Positions 8,282 through 63,528 of a stretch of 64,000 nucleotides of DNA are shown piece by piece. The position numbers and the translations under genes are program-made. The first letter of the stretch is position 1; every line of letters starts with the position of its first letter. Source of the stretch: Armatimonadetes bacterium Uphvl-Ar1. GTDB taxonomy: Bacteria > Armatimonadota > Fimbriimonadia > Fimbriimonadales > Fimbriimonadaceae. The notes beneath the pieces are model-generated. The model was not told the DNA's origin, did not search any database, and saw nothing but the letters and a program-made list of their open reading frames with translations. The stretch covers positions 1,426,001 through 1,490,000 of the forward strand of contig CP021423.1 in NCBI GenBank assembly GCA_002162075.1. The letters are read 5' to 3'.

Positions 8282-8983
8282 ATGGACTTCTTCACCCGAA
8301 CCCCAACCCGTCGCGAATTGTTCCAAGCCCTCGCCGCCGGAACCGCCGCCACCTTCTTCCCCGAAGAACTCCACCGACTCATAGAATCCGGCACCTATCA
8401 AGATCTCCTCCAGGTCACACCCGATCTCACCGAGGGCCCGTTCTATCCCAACCAACTCCCCCTCGACCAAGACAACGACCTCGTCATCATCAAAAATTCC
8501 ACCACTCCCGCCATCGGTCGAGTCACCCACCTGAGTGGAGAAATCCTTGACCGATCTGGCGCACCCATCAAAAACGCCGTCATCGAAATCTGGCAAGTGG
8601 ATGGCAACGGGGTCTACCTCCACTCCGGCTCTGCCAATAAATCGCAAGCCGACAAGAACTTCCAAGGTTTCGGCAAATTCGAGACCGACTCCACTGGTGC
8701 CTATAAGTTCCGCACCGTCAAACCTGTCCCCTACCCCGGACGTGCCCCTCACATCCACTTCCGCGTCATTCATAAAGAACAAGTCATCCTCACTTCTCAA
8801 ATCCATGTCCAAGATGACCCGGGCAACGCCCGCGACGGCGTCCTCCGATCAGCCGGCAATTCGGAAGCACAAAAGCTCGTCCAAGCCGCCTTCGTTCCGA
8901 TGAAAAACTCCCCCACCAGTGACCTCGAAGCAAAATTCCGAATCGTCATCGGCCTCACTCCTGAGGATACACACCACCACTAA
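8282..8983 (+). CDS. Intradiol ring-cleavage dioxygenase-like protein (protocatechuate 3,4-dioxygenase fold)
   Basis: 233 residues. The core has the family blocks TEGPFYPN, IWQVDGNGVYLH and YKFRTVKPVPYPGRAPHIHF, containing the Tyr/Tyr/His/His residues that bind the non-haem ferric iron in catechol and protocatechuate dioxygenases. The N-terminus (RRELFQALAAGTAATF) looks like a Tat-type export signal, as in many exported 'dioxygenase-like' proteins, so the aromatic substrate is uncertain. No other ring-cleavage gene is adjacent. TAAACT ends five bases before ATG 8282. Ends in a His-rich tail (THHH). Confidence 0.85.
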   Translation: MDFFTRTPTRRELFQALAAGTAATFFPEELHRLIESGTYQDLLQVTPDLTEGPFYPNQLPLDQDNDLVIIKNSTTPAIGRVTHLSGEILDRSGAPIKNAVIEIWQVDGNGVYLHSGSANKSQADKNFQGFGKFETDSTGAYKFRTVKPVPYPGRAPHIHFRVIHKEQVILTSQIHVQDDPGNARDGVLRSAGNSEAQKLVQAAFVPMKNSPTSDLEAKFRIVIGLTPEDTHHH

Positions 8984-8988
8984 ACAAC

Positions 8989-9021
8989 ATTGGCTGGTTT
9001 GACATCTGCAAACCAGCCAAT
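8989..9021. terminator. Hairpin between convergent genes
   Basis: ATTGGCTGGTTTG (8989-9001) and CAAACCAGCCAAT (9009-9021) form a perfect 13-bp stem with a 7-base loop. It has no clear U tract on either strand, but sits between the ends of two convergent genes and probably serves both as a 3' structure. Confidence 0.55.
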
Positions 9022-9038
9022 CGTAAGCACTAACTCAG

Positions 9039-9695
9039 TTAGGATCTTTTGCGACAAGCAAACCAAGCCCCAACTGCTGCAAGCCCCAGCATCGTCGCTG
9101 GCTCAGGCACCGCTTCCTGAGAAAAGCTAATGTTGTCCAAGCCAATATTGTCCGAGTTTCCGCCAAGTCCGGTGAGGTCAAGCTCCAAAACCAGAACTTG
9201 AGAGGCGAAGCCTCCGATGATAAAAGTCGACGCCGGACTACTAAAACTGGGAATCGGAACGTCGATAAGCTGCACCAAAGTTAATCCGTTTCCATCTTTC
9301 AAACTTAACCCTGGCAACGTGACCGCGCCCCCGAAGTTTCCAATATCAAAGCTGTTCAAAACGACATTCTGATTATTTGATGCGGTGAACGTGATCCGCA
9401 ACAACGGGTCTCCGTCATTTTCGTTATAAATCACGTTCGTTAGATCACTGCAACCCGTGCTCCACCAACTCAATGATCCAGAATCCGACCGAGAGTAGTC
9501 AACCGTCACATCCGGGGTCGTACCGTTGGAAATATCATAGCCAAAATTTCCTACCGTCGCCGCCGCGACATTGTCGCCATAGCCCTGATCCAGAAAATTT
9601 CCATTGCTATTTCCCGTAATATCAAATGTGAGCACTGTTGCTTGCGAAAGGGCTCCATGCCCAAGAATCCCTAAAGTCAAAATTTCTTTTGTCAT
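9039..9695 (-). CDS. PEP-CTERM sorting-domain protein
   Basis: 218 residues from ATG 9695, which has a good ribosome site (AGGAAGG). An N-terminal hydrophobic export signal is followed by a beta-rich, Gly/Asn/Thr-rich body and the C-terminal signature VPEPATMLGLAAVGAWFACRKRS-like tail: Val-Pro-Glu-Pro, one membrane helix, then basic residues. Such tails are cleaved by exosortase (EpsH family) and the proteins go to the outer surface or matrix. No exosortase gene lies in this window. Body function unknown. Confidence 0.85.
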   Translation of the reverse strand: MTKEILTLGILGHGALSQATVLTFDITGNSNGNFLDQGYGDNVAAATVGNFGYDISNGTTPDVTVDYSRSDSGSLSWWSTGCSDLTNVIYNENDGDPLLRITFTASNNQNVVLNSFDIGNFGGAVTLPGLSLKDGNGLTLVQLIDVPIPSFSSPASTFIIGGFASQVLVLELDLTGLGGNSDNIGLDNISFSQEAVPEPATMLGLAAVGAWFACRKRS

Positions 9696-9780
9696 CTTTT
9701 CCTTCCTCTCCAATCGGATTCCATTAGAATCCAGGAACTTGAAGCTCTTGTCCAGGGGTTCGGGAATATTTTCCTAAAGT

Positions 9781-9821
9781 CTAAACCAACCCCAACAACA
9801 CTTCAAACAATTTAACCATCG
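9781..9821 (-). pseudogene. Remnant 3' end of a DUF2779-type gene
   Basis: These 41 bases match 37 of 41 bases of the 3' end of the nuclease gene at 11390-11430. On the minus strand they encode MVKLFEVLLGLV-stop against MVKLFEALLGLV-stop in the live gene; three of the four differences are synonymous. Weaker resemblance continues a few codons upstream, then stops. It reads as the tail of a diverged homologue, now without its body. Confidence 0.7.
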
Positions 9822-9940
9822 AAGGACAAGTCCGATGACAGGAGAGTTAGTCAAGCAACAGTTCGGTTATGCGACCATACAGTGCAAAGTTGTGAGCAGG
9901 GGAGGCGCTCGCATCAGCCCTTGGAATTTTTAAGGAACTG

Positions 9941-9977
9941 TTGACAAAACACTTCCCGGGGGGGGTAAGGTTGAATC
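9941..9977 (+). promoter_or_regulatory. Promoter with -35 and -10, leaderless start
   Basis: TTGACA (9941-9946), 19 bases including a run of eight G, then TAAGGT (9966-9971), six bases and ATG 9978. This is the clearest -35 in the window. The spacer is slightly long; the G run may be miscounted. Confidence 0.55.
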
Positions 9978-10502
9978 ATGAAAATTGGCGTCTTCGTCGC
10001 ACTCGTCTTAACAGCGTTGTCATTCAATACATCTTACGCCCAATCCTGGACGAGAACCACAAGAGACATCAAGGAGACCACTTCAATTTTTCCAGTGGGA
10101 CCAGTAGTACTCTGCTCAGATACATCAGAAATTCCTGCAAATATTAGATTCTGGCGGTATCAACAATATTGCATTGAGTCTGGAGAGACCGGGCCGGTTA
10201 CACCAAGCTGGACCCCGCCAGTGTCAAACCTGATTAGCTTGAATAACTTGAGGATACCAGTGACTCATGGAGGTGTAAACGGAATCCCAAATCATGTTTA
10301 TGTCCTTGAAATGGTCGCAAAAGAATTTGCCCAATGGGATGTAGTAATTTACAATGGAGTTCCGAGTCTTACAAACTTCTTGCAACCACCCATCGAAACA
10401 TGGGAAAGCTCAGGAGGTTCTACGTCAGGAGGCACATTGAGTAGAACTGTTCGAAACTTTTCAGAAGTTGAAAGTCGCCACCAGTTCTACCCGCAATTCT
10501 AA
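9978..10502 (+). CDS. Secreted hypothetical protein
   Basis: 174 residues with a cleavable signal peptide (hydrophobic residues 4-15, cleavage near SYAQS). The mature part is polar, with several Pro/Trp pairs and a Ser/Gly-rich stretch near residues 145-155. I recognise no domain. It overlaps nothing functional downstream if the next gene starts at 10516. Codon use is more A/T-rich than in the neighbouring genes, and it lies between two copies of the DUF2779 3' end, so it may be part of an inserted segment. Confidence 0.65.
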   Translation: MKIGVFVALVLTALSFNTSYAQSWTRTTRDIKETTSIFPVGPVVLCSDTSEIPANIRFWRYQQYCIESGETGPVTPSWTPPVSNLISLNNLRIPVTHGGVNGIPNHVYVLEMVAKEFAQWDVVIYNGVPSLTNFLQPPIETWESSGGSTSGGTLSRTVRNFSEVESRHQFYPQF

Positions 10503-10515
10503 AAGGAAAAAACTG

Positions 10516-11382
10516 ATGTTTGCCCACTTATCCTTAATTGCACTTGCGGCATTCGATTTCTCGGAACTCCAGGTTGGTCAGAAGACAGTCGCATTGATTG
10601 GTGGTTCAACCGTAGAGTTCCCATCGACCTTCAATACTAACCAGAAATATTCTTTGCCTTCCAAGTGGCTAAACCTTCTAGAAAGTGACGAGGAGGCAAT
10701 CTACATAGATTTAGATTCTATTGGAGCAACGCATCTCGAAAATCTAACTCAATACTCTCAAATGATCAAGACCGGGACGGCACAAACTCAAGACGGTGAC
10801 AAGCTACTTGCAAGGATCTTACTCGCAATGCAACCCAACTCAATCCCATCCCACTTTAAGGACAATCCCACTATTTCTGTCTCAACCGAACAATTCGTTC
10901 TCATAAAATCACAACAAGATCAAGAAACATCAATAACACCTTTGCGTACGCCAACCAACCCCTCATTTAAGAGAAACATCCCAAGAGAGTTCTTTTCGAA
11001 CATTTCTCCAGTTGCAATAATGAACCCCAACTCTCTCAGCATCCAAGCCCGCGCATTCGGTGGTAATCAAATCCAACAAGCATCCCTCATTTCGCGCGGA
11101 GTGGAGCTAGCAGAGAAATACCTCAAGTCGAAAATGGACACGCTTAAGGATGCGTTTGAAAGTCAGCGAACCGAAGAACAAAAGGCTGAGCTGAGTAAGC
11201 TGAAGAGCCAATCCGTCCTCGGCTTAACTATGTCTCAACTGAAAGAAACTTATCCGCAACTTCAAATCCAGTCAGACCGACAAGGCAACTTCATCTTCAC
11301 TGAAACAATGCCCGTAATCAACTTCGTCATTGAAGCAAAGGGACAAAATATTGGCATTGCGGTTGACGCAAGAGGCAAATAA
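10516..11382 (+). CDS. Hypothetical exported protein
   Basis: 288 residues from ATG 10516, chosen because AAAAGGAAA lies just upstream and the first residues (MFAHLSLIALAAF) form a plausible export signal; the longer frame from 10468 overlaps the previous gene. The middle is Ser/Thr/Gln-rich; a segment near residues 185-235 (ELAEKYLKSKMDTLKDAF...EEQKAELSKLKSQ) is likely a long helix or coiled coil. No known domain. Probably co-transcribed with the gene at 9978, 13 bases away. Confidence 0.6.
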   Translation: MFAHLSLIALAAFDFSELQVGQKTVALIGGSTVEFPSTFNTNQKYSLPSKWLNLLESDEEAIYIDLDSIGATHLENLTQYSQMIKTGTAQTQDGDKLLARILLAMQPNSIPSHFKDNPTISVSTEQFVLIKSQQDQETSITPLRTPTNPSFKRNIPREFFSNISPVAIMNPNSLSIQARAFGGNQIQQASLISRGVELAEKYLKSKMDTLKDAFESQRTEEQKAELSKLKSQSVLGLTMSQLKETYPQLQIQSDRQGNFIFTETMPVINFVIEAKGQNIGIAVDARGK

Positions 11383-11389
11383 TTAGTTT

Positions 11390-12856
11390 CTAAACCAACC
11401 CCAACAACGCCTCAAACAACTTCACCATCGCAAAAGTATCCCGCTCGCAATACCGGAGCAGCGCCTCCCGCCGAGCCGCCAAATCCGCCCCGACCAACTC
11501 CCCACTCCGCGCCGCAACATAACTCATCTCCGCCATCCCGCCGTTCTTCACCTGCAAATCCGAATAATCCAGACCCGGAACCATCACCGGAAGCACGACT
11601 TTAATCGAACTCTTCCCTCGGAACTTCGGATGATAAACCCCATCCTTAAAGAAATCCTCCATATCCACGCTGGACGCCAAAAACTTCTGCAGCAACTCCT
11701 GCGCCCCGGGCACCCCTGCACCCACCAAGCGAGTCAAACACCGCTTTTCAAACGCCGAATAATGGATGACACTCCCTGCCCCCGCCAAAACCGGTGTCAA
11801 TGCCTCCACCAACCCCGCATGTGGATCATCCGACTCCAAATCCACAAACTCAAAATGAGCCGCATCCCCACCCGGCTCGCTCAATACGTGAGCAGAAAAT
11901 TGAAACACTACCAACTCCCCGCCCTTCATTCCCGGATTCACCGGAAACAGCGGCGAGGCCGTCTCAAAGTCCAAAAACACCGCCGGATACTTCACCGCCG
12001 CAAGCCGCCGACCTAAATCCGGCGCAACCCACGGCACCCGACCCGACCCCAATGCCCGCCGCACAAACTCCGCCTTGTTACTCAGTTCCTCATCCGCCGG
12101 AACCTCACTCATCCGATAAATCCCTCGATCAACCAAAGACTGATATTTCCGCTTGTCCAAACTCGGCGCAAATAGCAAATCATCGTCCGCCAAATCCCCA
12201 AAACAGTGACCCAGGTAAGGGCAAGTCGCCTCGCAATGCCGGCCCGCCCGAATCTGTTCCGCTTCCCCACTCTCGATAACCGCCAGCAATTCGTTCACTG
12301 CCTCCGGTAGCTCGGGAGATTCCCGCCGGCAAATATCCGTCACATCCAGCGGCACAAACAAATCCTGAACCCGCGACCCCTCAATCATCGGCGTCTCCTG
12401 CGCCACAAAAATCAACTCCACTCGCTCAATCGAAAGCCCCGACCGATTCAAAACGTGATACTGAAAGATCGCATCTTTAACGTGATTATCATTCACCGTC
12501 TTCGCCGATTTCACCTCGCGAAAACCCCACGCCTCTCCAATCCTGAACAAAATATCCACTTGCGCGAAGAGCCCATCAACCGCAAACGCCGCTTCATAAA
12601 GCACCCTGTGTCCATCCCTCATCATCTGCGCCGTATTTTCGAGCCGCTCAGATAAAGAATCACCCGGAACCTCAACCCCACCCGAGTTCAAACCCCGCGC
12701 CAAAATCCCAATCTTTTGGCCAATCTCGGCCCGCGCCAGCATCGCCTCATCAACAACCCCCAAATCCGGCTGATTCCACCGAAGCCACAATCGCTTCGGA
12801 CACTTCACCCCATCTTTATATGCCGATTTTGAGAGCCGACGCCCACCAGAAGTCAC
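11390..12856 (-). CDS. DUF2779 protein: Cas4/RecB-like nuclease fused to an RNase H-like exonuclease domain
   Basis: 488 residues. The N-terminal half has a PD-(D/E)XK pattern (VDILFR ... FREVKSAK) and four cysteines, one near the N-terminus (VKCPKRLW) and three in CEATCPYLGHC, as in Cas4/AddB-type Fe-S nucleases. The C-terminal half is DUF2779, with DEDD-like motifs FLDFETA, VIHYSAFEK and YCERDTFAM. The family is widespread and uncharacterised; role in DNA repair or defence is inferred from the folds. No cas genes or repeat array are near. A remnant of a homologous gene's 3' end lies at 9781-9821. Confidence 0.85.
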   Translation of the reverse strand: MTSGGRRLSKSAYKDGVKCPKRLWLRWNQPDLGVVDEAMLARAEIGQKIGILARGLNSGGVEVPGDSLSERLENTAQMMRDGHRVLYEAAFAVDGLFAQVDILFRIGEAWGFREVKSAKTVNDNHVKDAIFQYHVLNRSGLSIERVELIFVAQETPMIEGSRVQDLFVPLDVTDICRRESPELPEAVNELLAVIESGEAEQIRAGRHCEATCPYLGHCFGDLADDDLLFAPSLDKRKYQSLVDRGIYRMSEVPADEELSNKAEFVRRALGSGRVPWVAPDLGRRLAAVKYPAVFLDFETASPLFPVNPGMKGGELVVFQFSAHVLSEPGGDAAHFEFVDLESDDPHAGLVEALTPVLAGAGSVIHYSAFEKRCLTRLVGAGVPGAQELLQKFLASSVDMEDFFKDGVYHPKFRGKSSIKVVLPVMVPGLDYSDLQVKNGGMAEMSYVAARSGELVGADLAARREALLRYCERDTFAMVKLFEALLGLV

Positions 12857-14419: not shown

Positions 14420-14821
14420 ATGAAAGTCCTCAACATTCTCGGAATTGCCGTCGCCGTCCTTGCCTTTATTGCCCTCATCGCCGCCCAGGTCATCCGAGAG
14501 GACTACGCCAAACGCGCTGTCGTCTACCAACGCATCGAGCAAACCGAAGAAGCCAAACTATTCGGCGACGTCGGCACCAAAATCGGCTCCCCCCAAGCCT
14601 TCATCATCGATGACCCCAAAGCTATTCTCCCCGATACTTTAGAGGACGGAACAAGGCTCCTGAACGAGAACTACCTCAAGGCTAAAAGCATCTACCCCCT
14701 TCAACTCAAAACGATCAATGAAACGGTCTCAATGGTCTCCCTCGGCACCGCCCTCGCCCTCATCGCCGGCATCGCCACCACCCTCTTCACCCGCCGCAAG
14801 CTTGAAAAAACGAACGCTTGA
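14420..14821 (+). CDS. Small membrane protein of unknown function
   Basis: 133 residues from ATG 14420 (MKVLNILGIAVAVLAF). Two membrane segments, near residues 4-24 and about 105-123, enclose a soluble loop of roughly 80 residues, followed by a basic tail (RRKLEKTNA). Family not recognised. Close spacing behind the YceI gene suggests an operon, but no shared function can be claimed. Confidence 0.6.
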   Translation: MKVLNILGIAVAVLAFIALIAAQVIREDYAKRAVVYQRIEQTEEAKLFGDVGTKIGSPQAFIIDDPKAILPDTLEDGTRLLNENYLKAKSIYPLQLKTINETVSMVSLGTALALIAGIATTLFTRRKLEKTNA

Positions 14822-14845
14822 AGGGAAAATCTCTTAGTGATTCCT

Positions 14846-29894: not shown

Positions 29895-29955
29895 TCACAA
29901 TGTCCCGCGCAACGCCTGATCCCGCTCTAACGACTCGAACAACGCCTAAAATTCT
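29895..29955 (-). pseudogene. Remnant 3' end of a second hppD-like gene
   Basis: On the minus strand this encodes ALFESLERDQALRGTL-stop, against ALFESIEREQALRGTL-stop at the end of the live hppD. 41 of 49 aligned bases match; four changes are synonymous and two are Ile/Leu and Glu/Asp. The reading frame hits TAG just upstream (AAG to TAG) and then runs into a palindromic repeat at about 29952-29990. It is the tail of a diverged paralogue. Confidence 0.75.
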
Positions 29956-29990
29956 CCCTCCCCTTTGGGGAGGGGTAAGGGGAGGGGCCA
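29952..29990. repeat. Palindromic G/C repeat at the junction between hppD and the remnant tail
   Basis: TCTCCCTCCCCTTTGGGGAGG followed by GGTAAGGGGAGGGG, same family as the other palindromes; it separates the remnant 3' end from the live hppD stop codon by a few bases. Confidence 0.65.
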
Positions 29991-29996
29991 ATCAGT

Positions 29997-32078: not shown

Positions 32079-32117
32079 ATCAGTCGAGCAGGTTGAATTC
32101 AATCTGCTCGACTGATG
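32079..32117 (+). terminator. Long perfect hairpin after the PEP-CTERM gene
   Basis: CATCAGTCGAGCAG (32079-32092) pairs with CTGCTCGACTGATG (32104-32117), 14 bp perfect, with GTTGAATTCAAT able to fold further in the loop. U tract weak (TGTTGGG), so possibly a 3' stabilising hairpin. Confidence 0.65.
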
Positions 32118-32270
32118 TGTTGGGAAACGAATATTCCTAGAATTCCACTTCTGAATAGCCGTAAAGTCGCAAATTCGCATACATCAAATCATAAAATTGT
32201 CTACAATGTCCGAACCCAAAATCCAATCTTTCACTCACAGCCAAGAGTATCGGCTCCAAAAGCGTTGAGC

Positions 32271-32488
32271 CTAACGGCCAGTCTCTAAATCAACCAACTT
32301 GCCCAATTCAACCACAAACAGCTCTTCAAGCCGAGCCCCCACTTCCCCAATTCCGCCCAGAACCCATGGGCATCCGGATGGTGTATCTTCAACTCTGTTT
32401 CATCCGGCAACAGCGAAACCAAAAGCATCGGCAAAACCTCCTCCCCACTCGAAACCCGGATCGATACCAGATTCTTACTTAAATGTCC
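32271..32488 (-). pseudogene. Remnant 3' end of an unidentified gene
   Basis: The minus strand encodes a ~70-residue coding-like stretch (NLVSIRVSSGEEVLPMLLVS...LKIHHPDAHGFWAELGKWG) that shifts frame at a GGGGG run (plus-strand 32336-32340). With one extra base it continues ARLEELFVVELGKLVDLETGR-stop, ending at 32271. There is no start codon and a stop lies immediately upstream. Family not recognised. Best read as a truncated 3' piece of a lost gene. Confidence 0.45.
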
Positions 32489-32682
32489 TCAAATCTCAAC
32501 TCATCAATGCATCAAACCGAGTTTTCACTAGCCAAAATGACAAAGCGAACGGCAAAATTCACTTCCTACTTTCCATGAGCGGGAGGATAGTTCACTAATT
32601 TCGAGTCATCAGGTATATCTCACACCGCACTTTACAAATCCAACTCACTTTAGAAAATTCGGTTGACAATCTTTAGGGACGA

Positions 32683-32829
32683 TCACAGGGAACCGACAAG
32701 TGCGAGTGCAAAAATCAATGCAAAAACTCCTAATACAAACGTTGCCAACTTGAAAATGTCCAAAGAACCCTCTTGCGGAGCTTTCCAGTCCGGGTCTCCG
32801 TCAAATTCGTCCTCAAATGGTTGCCACAT
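32683..32829 (-). CDS. Candidate single-span membrane microprotein (48 residues)
   Basis: ATG 32829 to TGA 32683. An acidic N-terminus (MWQPFEDEFDGDPDWKAPQ) is followed by one hydrophobic helix (LATFVLGVFALIFALALVG). The Asp/Trp-rich head plus membrane anchor is a plausible real small protein, and it is too short for most gene callers. Upstream is a CTGGCA...TGCCAG inverted repeat. No homologue recognised; could be chance. Confidence 0.4.
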   Translation of the reverse strand: MWQPFEDEFDGDPDWKAPQEGSLDIFKLATFVLGVFALIFALALVGSL

Positions 32830-33194
32830 GCATACAGTCTGGCACAAGCTCTAGCTGATGAATGCCAGAATTTCTACTATTTTGTAAAGGTCAAAAGAAG
32901 GACGAACAATATTAACCCACATACCGAAATCGTGAGATATCTACAATCAGATTCGTCAAACTTGCCCCACATGTTCACCTTCTTAGAATACCAATCCTGT
33001 GAATATATCCCCACTAGCCTAGCAAGTTTACCGATTCTTCAAGTGGCCGAGACCAAAAAGAATGCCTCTCCCCAGTCGAGTTCGGGAGCATTTTTCCGAT
33101 TTTGTCGATTGGATTTCCGAACCAGTCGAGCAAACCAACCGGTGTAATAAAGCGCATCAGAAACCGTGTGGTAAACTGAACCAAATTGAAGCCA
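32830..33194. other. A/T-rich stretch with nothing supported
   Basis: Between the candidate microprotein and the O-antigen ligase gene I see no start with a ribosome site or -10 spacing and no domain in any frame. Confidence 0.5.
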
Positions 33195-34481
33195 ATGGAC
33201 ACGCCGAGCCCAAGAGTATCCAAATTTCAAGTGACTCCGTACATCAAAGGTGAGCTCAGCCGACCAAAGAATGTGAGTAAGGTGCTGACAATAGTGCTCT
33301 TCATACTCTTTATCGTCATGGAAGTGGCTAACTTCAGTGCGTTCTACACAGGGATCGCGAAACCAACACAAGTCGGTGCGATTTGGGCTCTCCTCGCATG
33401 TTTTGCTCTATACGCCGAAAACGCAGTGAACGCCCGGTCAAAGATTCATCCTTTTCAACTTGTCGGAGCATTGCTCTTCTTGATCGGGATTCCGGGACTC
33501 GTCCTGTCAAATCCGGGTTTACAACAGACTCTTTTCTACGTAGTCTACATTTTCGCCATGGCATTGCGGTTGGTACTTGTTTTCATAATTCTTCCTCGCA
33601 TTATGATGAGGAGTGAGAAGTCTCCGATACACCTTATCTTAAATTGGATGCTCTTTGCATCATTTATTGCATGTCTCGTTGTAATTTATGATTACACCAC
33701 ACTAGGTTTTAACATATTTAACAGCGCCCGTCCGGGGCCAGGTACAGGTGCAAAGTGGATCAACCCTAATCTCGCCGGATTCTACGCGACCTTTGCATTC
33801 TACACTGCGTTCCTAGCTGAACGAGCGAAACCGATACTCCGACTTTCTTCCATTTCCGTAGGGTTCTACCTGGCTATGGTCAGCCAAAGCCGCAATGCCC
33901 TTTTCGTTATTGCCTTTTCAACAATTATTTATGTCGCGCTCCTAATCCTCGAGAATCCAAAAAAATACTCCATGAGAATAGTTGGCTGGGGAACAACCGG
34001 CCTCGTGTTGTTGTTTACAATCTTTGTTGTCTTTAAAGATCTCCCCATGATCCAAGGTCTATCGCGTCGCTTCTCTAGTGAGGACTTCACTACAGGTCGG
34101 GACGACTATGCCGTCGTTGCTCTGGAAATTTGGCGAAGCTCTCCATTGTTCGGACAAGGATTTACAGGTATCCAGATCGACAACGCCTACATCACCTTCA
34201 TGCTCGAAACGGGCATTGTCGGCCTCATCATATACTTAGCCGTCTTCGGAGCCATTCTCTACAACGGCTGGAGGCACTTCCTCCAAGGAAACCAAACCGA
34301 AAAAATTCTTGGCAAAGCGATTATCGTTATGGGAATCGCAATTTTCATTAGAGGGTTTGCCGAAAACGTCAGCTTCATGATGATCACAGACCTCCAGTCA
34401 AACGCCTTCTGCATTCTCGCGGCGATTTCTTTCCTCATTCCAATAAGGCGAACCAACACAATCCTTCCCTCGTCCACCTGA
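33195..34481 (+). CDS. O-antigen ligase/polymerase-like membrane protein
   Basis: 428 residues from ATG 33195, with about ten to eleven membrane segments. The conserved cytoplasmic/periplasmic blocks of the Wzy_C/WaaL family are present: NPNLAGFYATFAFYTAF (central) and GRDDYAVVALEIWRSSPLFGQGF ... DNAYITFMLETGIVGLI near the C-terminus, in the periplasmic loop that carries the catalytic residues in WaaL. Likely joins or polymerises surface polysaccharide. Base composition is more A/T-rich than its neighbours, and no other polysaccharide gene is adjacent, so recent transfer is possible. Confidence 0.8.
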   Translation: MDTPSPRVSKFQVTPYIKGELSRPKNVSKVLTIVLFILFIVMEVANFSAFYTGIAKPTQVGAIWALLACFALYAENAVNARSKIHPFQLVGALLFLIGIPGLVLSNPGLQQTLFYVVYIFAMALRLVLVFIILPRIMMRSEKSPIHLILNWMLFASFIACLVVIYDYTTLGFNIFNSARPGPGTGAKWINPNLAGFYATFAFYTAFLAERAKPILRLSSISVGFYLAMVSQSRNALFVIAFSTIIYVALLILENPKKYSMRIVGWGTTGLVLLFTIFVVFKDLPMIQGLSRRFSSEDFTTGRDDYAVVALEIWRSSPLFGQGFTGIQIDNAYITFMLETGIVGLIIYLAVFGAILYNGWRHFLQGNQTEKILGKAIIVMGIAIFIRGFAENVSFMMITDLQSNAFCILAAISFLIPIRRTNTILPSST

Positions 34482-34616
34482 TCGTCGCCGAAGGCACTGC
34501 TGGACAATTCGATCCCGTTAAAGAGGCAAGGATCTTCCAAATCTGCGAATACAAATCACTCATTCTGAAAGGGATTCCAAAATCAACCAACATATGGCAT
34601 CCTCTCTTGCAAATCT

Positions 34617-57263: not shown

Positions 57264-57957
57264 GCTCTAGTATCTTTGGGTGGCACTGGCTTAGCCAGTG
57301 TTTTGTAGACTGGCACTTGCAAAACCAGTGTTCATCACTTTGAATAGTGGAACGAGTTCCAGCTGTTCCATCGTCATCCCAGCGAATGCTGGGATCCATC
57401 CCATAACCACAGAAACCTAAGTGCAACAACACTACGTACCAACATCGTAATTCCAGGCGTGGTCCAGAATCTCAAGAGCAAGTTTATGGGTGGCACTGGC
57501 GTAGCCAGTGTTTTGAAGAATGCCACTGGTGCAACAGTAAAAGACTATCCAGATCGTCATTCCGGGCGTGACCCAGAGTCATCGAGAGAAATTTTTGTGT
57601 TCCCCTCCCCCCCTCTGGGGGAGAGCCTGCCCCGGGCTTGAACCGCGGACTTAGGAGGGGGCTACCCACAATTCACGCACGAGAGATGCTCCAAAGTTGT
57701 CATTCCGGGCGTGACCCGGAATCTAACTGAATATCAATTGTCGTCTTCCCCGCGCAGAGCCTGCCCCGGGCTTGAACCGGGGCGGGGATCCAGTCCAAAA
57801 AAATGTCGAAGGCTCGCAGTTCGTCATTCCGGGCGTGACCCGGAATCTCAAGAGCAAGTTTATGCATGGCACCGGTGAAACCAGTGTTCATCACCCAATC
57901 CCTGCTTTGTGGGAGATCACTCAGCAGGGATCGAAAAACCGTCCTCTCGTTGTGCTG
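57264..57957. repeat. Block of interspersed palindromic repeats
   Basis: 694 bases without a gene, built of four repeat types. (a) GGGTGGCACTGG...CCAGTGTTTTG at 57278-57305, 57488-57515, and a variant from 57865. (b) GTCATTCCGGGCGTGACCC-type units from 57446 (variant), 57555, 57698 and 57822, some followed by AATCTCAAGAGCAAGTTTATG. (c) CCCCTCCCCCCCTCTGG...AGGAGGGGG at about 57601-57661. (d) GCCTGCCCCGGGCTTGAACC from 57626 and 57761. They repeat in a similar order in the block at 62.8-63.4 kb. Confidence 0.8.
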
Positions 57958-62795: not shown

Positions 62796-63528
62796 CTCTC
62801 CTTAGCCCACGTAACGCAAGTGGCAATGGCGTCTCAAGTACATCATTAATCGTATTCCCCGCGCAGGCGGGGACCCAGTCCAAGAAAAATGCCGCAGGCT
62901 CCCTACGTTGCCATTCCGGGCGTGACCAGCAATCCCAAAGGCAAGCACTTGGGTGGCACTGGTGAAACCAGTGAACAGCACGCGAGTTCGTCATTCCGTA
63001 CGTGACCCGGATTCATGCAGAGAATTGTTTTCGTTCCCCCTCCCCCTTTGGGGGAGGACTTTGGAGGGGGCTATAAAAGGCTCAAGCTCATGAATGGCTC
63101 CCGAGTCGCCATTCCGAGCGCGACCCGGAATCTCAGCCTCTAAATCACTATCGCTAATTCTCTACCCTGATGGGAAGTGGAAAAGGTGGGGCGGTAAAAG
63201 ATAAAGTAATTCGTTTACTCCCTCCCCTGATGGGGAGGGGAAGGGGTGGGGAGACATGCCTAACCCCAGAAACTCATGATCTTCCAAGGAAACGACAGCC
63301 TGCCCCGGGCGTGACCCGGAATCTCAAAAGTAAAACAAAACAGGAATTCCCGCACAAAAAAGCACCCGAGGCTCTCACACCTCGGTCAAAGTTCTGAACT
63401 CTCGATCAGCAACCCCTTGGATCATCAATCTCCCCCAACCGACCAACCCCACCATAACAAACCCGTCACAAAATCCCGCTCCCCTCTCCAGATTTCCCAA
63501 ATCCACCGACAATTAATCTCAGAAAGTC
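62796..63528. repeat. Second block of interspersed palindromic repeats
   Basis: 733 bases without a supported gene. Holds CCGCGCAGGCGGGGACCCAGTCC near 62858 type units, GTCATTCCGTACGTGACCC (from 62990), GCCATTCCGAGCGCGACCC (from 63099), GGGTGGCACTGG...CCAGTG (62951), three CCCTCCCC...GGGGAGGG palindromes (63036-63071, 63160-63192, 63218-63252), CCTGCCCCGGGCGTGACCC (63300). A short CCGAGG/CCTCGG hairpin lies near 63366-63385. Confidence 0.75.

Follow-up and report, generated by a model that had tools for sequence, protein, structure and literature searches.

A two-gene insert beside a duplicated DUF2779 gene end in an Armatimonadota genome, and similar inserts at gene 3′ ends in its genus

Organization of the DUF2779 locus

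The window, a stretch of 64 kb analysed at its full length, belongs to a genome of 2.985 Mb assembled as a single contig (G000) and contains a DUF2779 gene whose 3′ end occurs twice (Table 1). The two copies (9780–9821 and 11389–11430) form a direct repeat of 42 nt with 38 identical positions (90%) and a spacing of 1609, which is detected by blastn when the 64 kb is compared with itself (E 7e-9); beyond the 42 nt, gapped similarity does not exceed that of shuffled sequences. The initial annotation of this DNA had described a tail repeat with four differences, and the repeat proves to be real, with an extent of 42 nt; the peptides encoded by the two copies, MVKLFEVLLGLV and MVKLFEALLGLV, each followed by a stop codon, also agree with that description.

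The DNA between the copies (9822–11388, 1.57 kb) has a GC content of 0.45, as against 0.52 for the window, and holds only orf1 and orf2, with no integrase and no transfer genes. These are the two A/T-rich genes of unknown function that had been placed there earlier, and their positions are confirmed. For orf2, an alternative TTG start is possible at 10468. Neither gene matches a Pfam family at its cut-off, and nothing was found for either in PADLOC or PHROGs. One clear relative of orf1 exists in G004, a member of the same genus, with 33% identity and one TGA interruption, and otherwise only a marginal relative is present among 85 genomes of the family; orf2 has no convincing relative. Searches of viral contigs and plasmids gave no match to orf1, and searches of phages and the PDB gave none to orf2. 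Single-sequence structure predictions were of low confidence (mean pLDDT 35 for orf1 and 38 for orf2).

Table 1. Features in and around the insert at the DUF2779 gene end (window coordinates)
Feature	Position	Strand	Basis
Dioxygenase gene (Dioxygenase_C); its stop adjoins the DUF2779 stop in G006	8282..8983	+	
Segment with terminator-like hairpin and PEP-CTERM gene, absent from G006; separate or composite event	8984..9779	.	
PEP-CTERM protein gene, located after the dioxygenase stop and before the tail copy	9039–9713	-	
DUF2779 tail copy, displaced, attR-like	9780..9821	-	repeat comparison
Possible slippage-prone promoter for the insert (TTGACA, 8-G tract, TAAGGT)	9941..9971	+	
orf1 (174 aa; no known family), with a clear signal peptide at the N terminus on inspection	9978..10502	+	
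orf2, 288 aa, no known family, stop 7 nt from the DUF2779 stop	10516..11382	+	
DUF2779 present-day 3′ end, attL-like, thought to be partly incoming	11389..11430	-	repeat comparison
DUF2779 gene (PF11074), target, end kept intact	11390..12856	-	Pfam, relatives

The site in related genomes

The nearest relative, G006 (a MAG; contig PNMZ01000004.1), has a DNA identity of ~89% at this site, and its sequence aligns to the window up to 8983 and resumes at 11391, with 2 nt between. The stops of the dioxygenase and DUF2779 genes are therefore neighbours in G006, and the whole 2.4 kb is absent. A comparison of synteny had been proposed as a check on the earlier reading and, when carried out, it revealed that the closest relative indeed has a single tail and lacks the two-gene insert, but that the missing stretch (8984–11390) is larger than the earlier reading had it. 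Because this stretch also includes the PEP-CTERM gene, the difference must represent either two insertions or one composite insertion. A different gene occupies the DUF2779 site in G003 and G005, and the neighbours in G004 and G007 are altogether different, which indicates that the place is variable.

The DUF2779 gene and its tail copy share several differences from G006 and, with 4 differences in 42, are closer to each other than either is to G006. Since the divergence between gene and copy is smaller than that between gene and G006, the tail duplication is younger than the split from G006. The converse event, in which the window would retain the ancestral state and G006 would have deleted the segment, has some room, as polarity hangs on one close relative and other members of the genus have different genes there. 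However, such a deletion would have to end precisely between two stops, orf1 and orf2 occur at the DUF2779 site in no other member of the genus, and a duplication that postdates the split speaks against it as well; it is accordingly considered very improbable. The gain of genes at the 3′ end of DUF2779 is genuine and fairly recent, and it displaced the old end of the gene.

Further differences from G006 are present in the window. At 14802–14843, G006 has ~1.07 kb extra, in which an alpha/beta-hydrolase-like gene lies, while the neighbours on both sides are unchanged, and at 32116–34588 the window has 2.5 kb, including an O-antigen-ligase-like gene, where G006 has 0.3 kb. Clusters of short dispersed repeats at 57277–57894 and 62866–63333 are partly absent from G006.

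Tail copies elsewhere in the same genome

A copy of the hppD tail, which had been put forward as a second instance of the same event, is real (29897–29959) and absent from G006. The two hppD copies are separated by only ~40 bp, occupied by a REP-like hairpin and no cargo genes, so this copy looks like a local duplication, that is, a scar of a different kind of event. REP-like hairpins are found beside the hppD tail copy, at 29897–29996 of the window.

A scan for duplicated gene tails, also proposed with the initial annotation, covered a sample of 1.09 Mb of the same genome with 907 ORFs. It recovered orphan tails of plausible single-copy genes for DUF2779 and hppD only, both inside the window and none outside it; all remaining matches came from paralogs, short repeats or an RHS array. 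On these small counts, orphan 5′-end copies did not occur outside paralogs or one RHS array. Among the tRNA genes of this genome, 34 of the 35 checked have no displaced 3′ end within 8 kb, and the other belongs to a tandem tRNA pair.

A prophage-like element (G000:C1:584144–623900; L090, L191 and L192) carries an integrase and lies at a tRNA 3′ end, of which 49 of 50 nt are repeated 39.6 kb away; this copy is located beyond the 8-kb range of the tRNA search. The element is a positive control for integration at a tRNA 3′ end. Around the integrase loci of six genomes, no exact repeats of at least 17 nt were detected on both sides over a distance of 25 kb, the exception being short palindromes on one contig. 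A tandem RHS-type array at L046 637–10571 (G000:C1:1950637–1960571) consists of near-identical RHS C-terminal modules with a different tip and a small gene behind each, and adjoins a tyrosine recombinase gene at 1949701–1950222.

Similar inserts at other gene ends of the genus

The same anatomy is found at other gene ends of the genus, and in three cases a relative has an empty site. In G003, a HerA-like ATPase gene has its 3′ end repeated over 117 nt (83%) around a single A/T-rich gene for a KAP NTPase, which PADLOC classifies as PifA-like (E 1.7e-30), and G005 has an empty HerA site with the same flank as G003. As this case was found by a targeted search, it is not counted towards any rate. 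A family-wide search for the donor of the KAP NTPase gave distant relatives only. The lone PifA-like NTPase at the HerA-like gene end (G003 L125 6149–8215) is a candidate defence gene.

Two further inserts are located at tRNA genes of G006. The one at tRNA-Thr measures 1.2 kb, carries one gene, is bounded by an exact repeat of 23 nt and is absent from the window, and the one at tRNA-Arg measures 2.6 kb, carries an RHS-type C-terminal fragment along with two small ORFs, and is bounded by an exact repeat of 58 nt; its distal flank matches G000 and is native, whereas its proximal flank does not match. A methyltransferase-like gene of G006 has a 162-nt duplicate of its 3′ end (80%) around a prepilin-like gene, a case that is older and frameshifted. 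No match to PF00589 was found in these inserts or in the 64-kb window, and the inserts, of 1.2–2.6 kb, have no recognised recombinase gene. The G004 relative of the orf1–orf2 cassette and a further gene pair in G000 (L075) adjoin gene ends without tail copies. The earlier suggestion of a recurrent route of gene gain by recombination at gene 3′ ends is thus supported within the genus, where such gains, on small counts, are recurrent though rare; hppD drops out as an example.

Comparison of the tail copies

The two HerA tails differ at 14 positions in the last 90 nt, and 14 of 14 are at codon position 3; the tails therefore appear to be two coding alleles rather than an original and its decaying duplicate. 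The first (inner) 27 nt of the HerA copy are homologous (21/27) but not codon-like, similarity is gone further in, and identity upstream of the copy is only 10/60, so that the inner end is abrupt. The split of the last 90 nt between native and foreign versions is only 8 to 4.

Displaced tails could also have arisen by duplication with later deletion and decay: the DUF2779 end, or a larger piece, would have been copied in tandem, and the unselected copy would have decayed. Tandem paralogs and repeats are common in this genome, and the older methyltransferase case in G006, being frameshifted, would suit this reading. The third-position differences of the HerA tails are unexpected in a non-coding copy, however, and the DNA between copies is A/T-rich and absent from relatives, which leaves this an improbable explanation.

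In the DUF2779 tail, the gene agrees with G006 at the two 5′ differences and the copy agrees with G006 at the two 3′ differences, a mosaic that rests on four sites and has a chance of 1 in 6 given a 2:2 split. The identity between the gene and G006 falls from 97.5% in the preceding 120 nt to 77.8% at the very end, again over few sites. The mosaic would fit one exchange midway along the tail, although at four sites it is only suggestive. Homology-facilitated illegitimate recombination, considered below, would be expected to leave homologous donor DNA at one border and a junction lacking homology at the other; the inner end of the DUF2779 copy is abrupt, likewise judged from few sites.

A model for insertion at the DUF2779 gene end

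The segment 9822–11388 is probably best regarded, with a probability of about 0.5, as a horizontally gained mini-island resembling a cis-mobilizable element (CIME), which would have recombined site-specifically into the DUF2779 gene at its 3′ end. The observations behind this model are the repeat, the relative with neither insert nor second tail, inserts of like anatomy at other gene ends, the mosaic tail and the lack of orphan 5′-end copies outside one RHS array. The incoming DNA would have entered by one reciprocal exchange located in the terminal ~40 bases of the gene, and the tail version that it brought along would now end the DUF2779 gene, thereby restoring it; the native tail would have been pushed to the far side, at 9780–9821. 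The recombinase, possibly a tyrosine recombinase, would have acted in trans or been lost since. The insert would then behave like a CIME between attL and attR.

The 3′ ends of tRNA genes are classical sites of tyrosine recombinases. The exact repeats at two tRNA genes, together with the integrase-bearing prophage-like element at a tRNA of the window's own genome, make site-specific recombination the more economical account. In conflict with the mini-island model, the displaced tail does not adjoin the dioxygenase gene as the tail does in G006; the 0.8-kb PEP-CTERM segment lies between them, and a second event is therefore needed. No attP-like copy of the DUF2779 tail was found in viral contigs. 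The lack of a recombinase gene in the inserts and the window also counts against the model, as do the G004 cassette relative and the L075 pair, which adjoin gene ends but have no tail copies.

The main rival is homology-facilitated illegitimate recombination, which has a lesser but still substantial chance of being correct and accounts almost equally well for the inserts at protein genes. In this view, a related species would have supplied linear DNA in which the cargo lay beside that species' own copy of the target end; this DNA would have been anchored homologously in the gene and joined illegitimately inside the old tail, which would thereby be truncated and displaced. Tail copies of varying length (42, 117 and 162 nt) with abrupt inner ends, HerA tails that resemble two coding alleles and the lack of a recombinase gene all agree with such a process, and the G004 relative of orf1–orf2 directly abuts a HerA end, as a donor might. 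The same model has been proposed for displaced type VI/RHS gene ends, although the process is reported to be rare (PMC5361080). It does not naturally give exact repeats of 23 and 58 nt at two tRNA 3′ ends, and the inner 27 nt of the HerA copy, homologous yet non-codon-like, fit it poorly.

An extension of the site-specific model to the whole genus is improbable. A shared recombinase acting in trans would repeatedly integrate cassettes of one or two genes, among them phage-defence-like genes and genes for secreted proteins, at 3′ gene ends, those of proteins as well as tRNAs, each cassette with a synonymous mimic of the target tail, in the manner of integron capture. If this is true, gene ends serve as capture sites of an integron-like route.

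Relation to known elements

A CIME is a decayed ICE or IME that keeps attL and attR and has lost its integration and transfer genes (PMC5704250). The inserts resemble CIMEs in that the direct repeats include the target 3′ end, the gene is intact and integration and transfer genes are absent; at the DUF2779 locus, one copy of the 42-nt repeat is the gene end, and its role as an att site is putative. They differ in having only one or two genes in 1.2–2.6 kb and several unrelated targets, no related ICE or IME is seen at the sites, and mobility is putative. Descent from an ICE or IME and mobilization in cis by accretion would be expected of a CIME; no related element was found at the DUF2779 site. 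Some genomic islands at ssrA in Dehalococcoides also have no integration module (PMC3146451), and their bounds are likewise a repeated RNA-gene 3′ end. These islands, however, are all at ssrA, and a serine-recombinase module is present on sister islands at the same site.

IMEs and prophages whose target is the 3′ end of a tRNA or housekeeping gene encode their own integrase. The inserts share with them the 3′-end target and the restoration of the gene by one repeat copy, and this genome has one such element, at a tRNA, but the DUF2779 insert has no integrase of its own. An integron gene cassette would be expected beside an integron integrase, whereas the 64-kb window has no tyrosine recombinase. 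As with displaced effector and RHS gene ends (PMC5361080), an older gene end has been moved downstream by the arrival of a new module; there, however, the target is a toxin/immunity locus in which an upstream anchor is conserved.

In compact genomes, gene gain can mostly be recognized only in retrospect, and a tail duplicate both marks and places the event and shows that the target gene was kept intact. It provides a simple sequence signature for tiny islands without a recombinase gene and, as one insert carries a PifA-like NTPase, may aid the discovery of individual new defence genes. The recurring inserts at gene ends point to a way of gaining genes without breaking existing ones.

The cargo and its promoter

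The −35 and −10 elements ascribed earlier to the insert are present as TTGACA (9941–9946) and TAAGGT (9966–9971) with an 8-G run at 9958–9965 in the 19-bp spacer; because part of the spacer is homopolymer, that assignment is only partly right. A run of 15 G is found at the equivalent place ahead of the G004 orf1 relative. When an ATG follows closely, the TTGACA/poly-G pattern is found in G000, G004 and G001, and a reversed control contains no instance of it. As a weak guess, orf1 and orf2 may encode an exported protein pair under a slippage-controlled promoter, the most likely reading of the cargo.

Two-gene units with the same form of promoter are also present at L075 (G000) and L220 (G004), and their proteins are not detectably related; these pairs were considered as homologues of orf1 and orf2 and rejected, as neither BLASTP nor HHalign supported them. 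TTGACA followed by 8–15 G precedes two-gene units at 9941–9980 of the window, L029 14243–14286, L075 7470–7512 and L220 1502–1538. In these units the first product is small and the second has ~300 aa, and the promoters are possibly phase-variable. The first gene is broken in both G004 units, by an in-frame TGA at L029 14284–14797 and by an apparent frameshift at L220 1536–2089.
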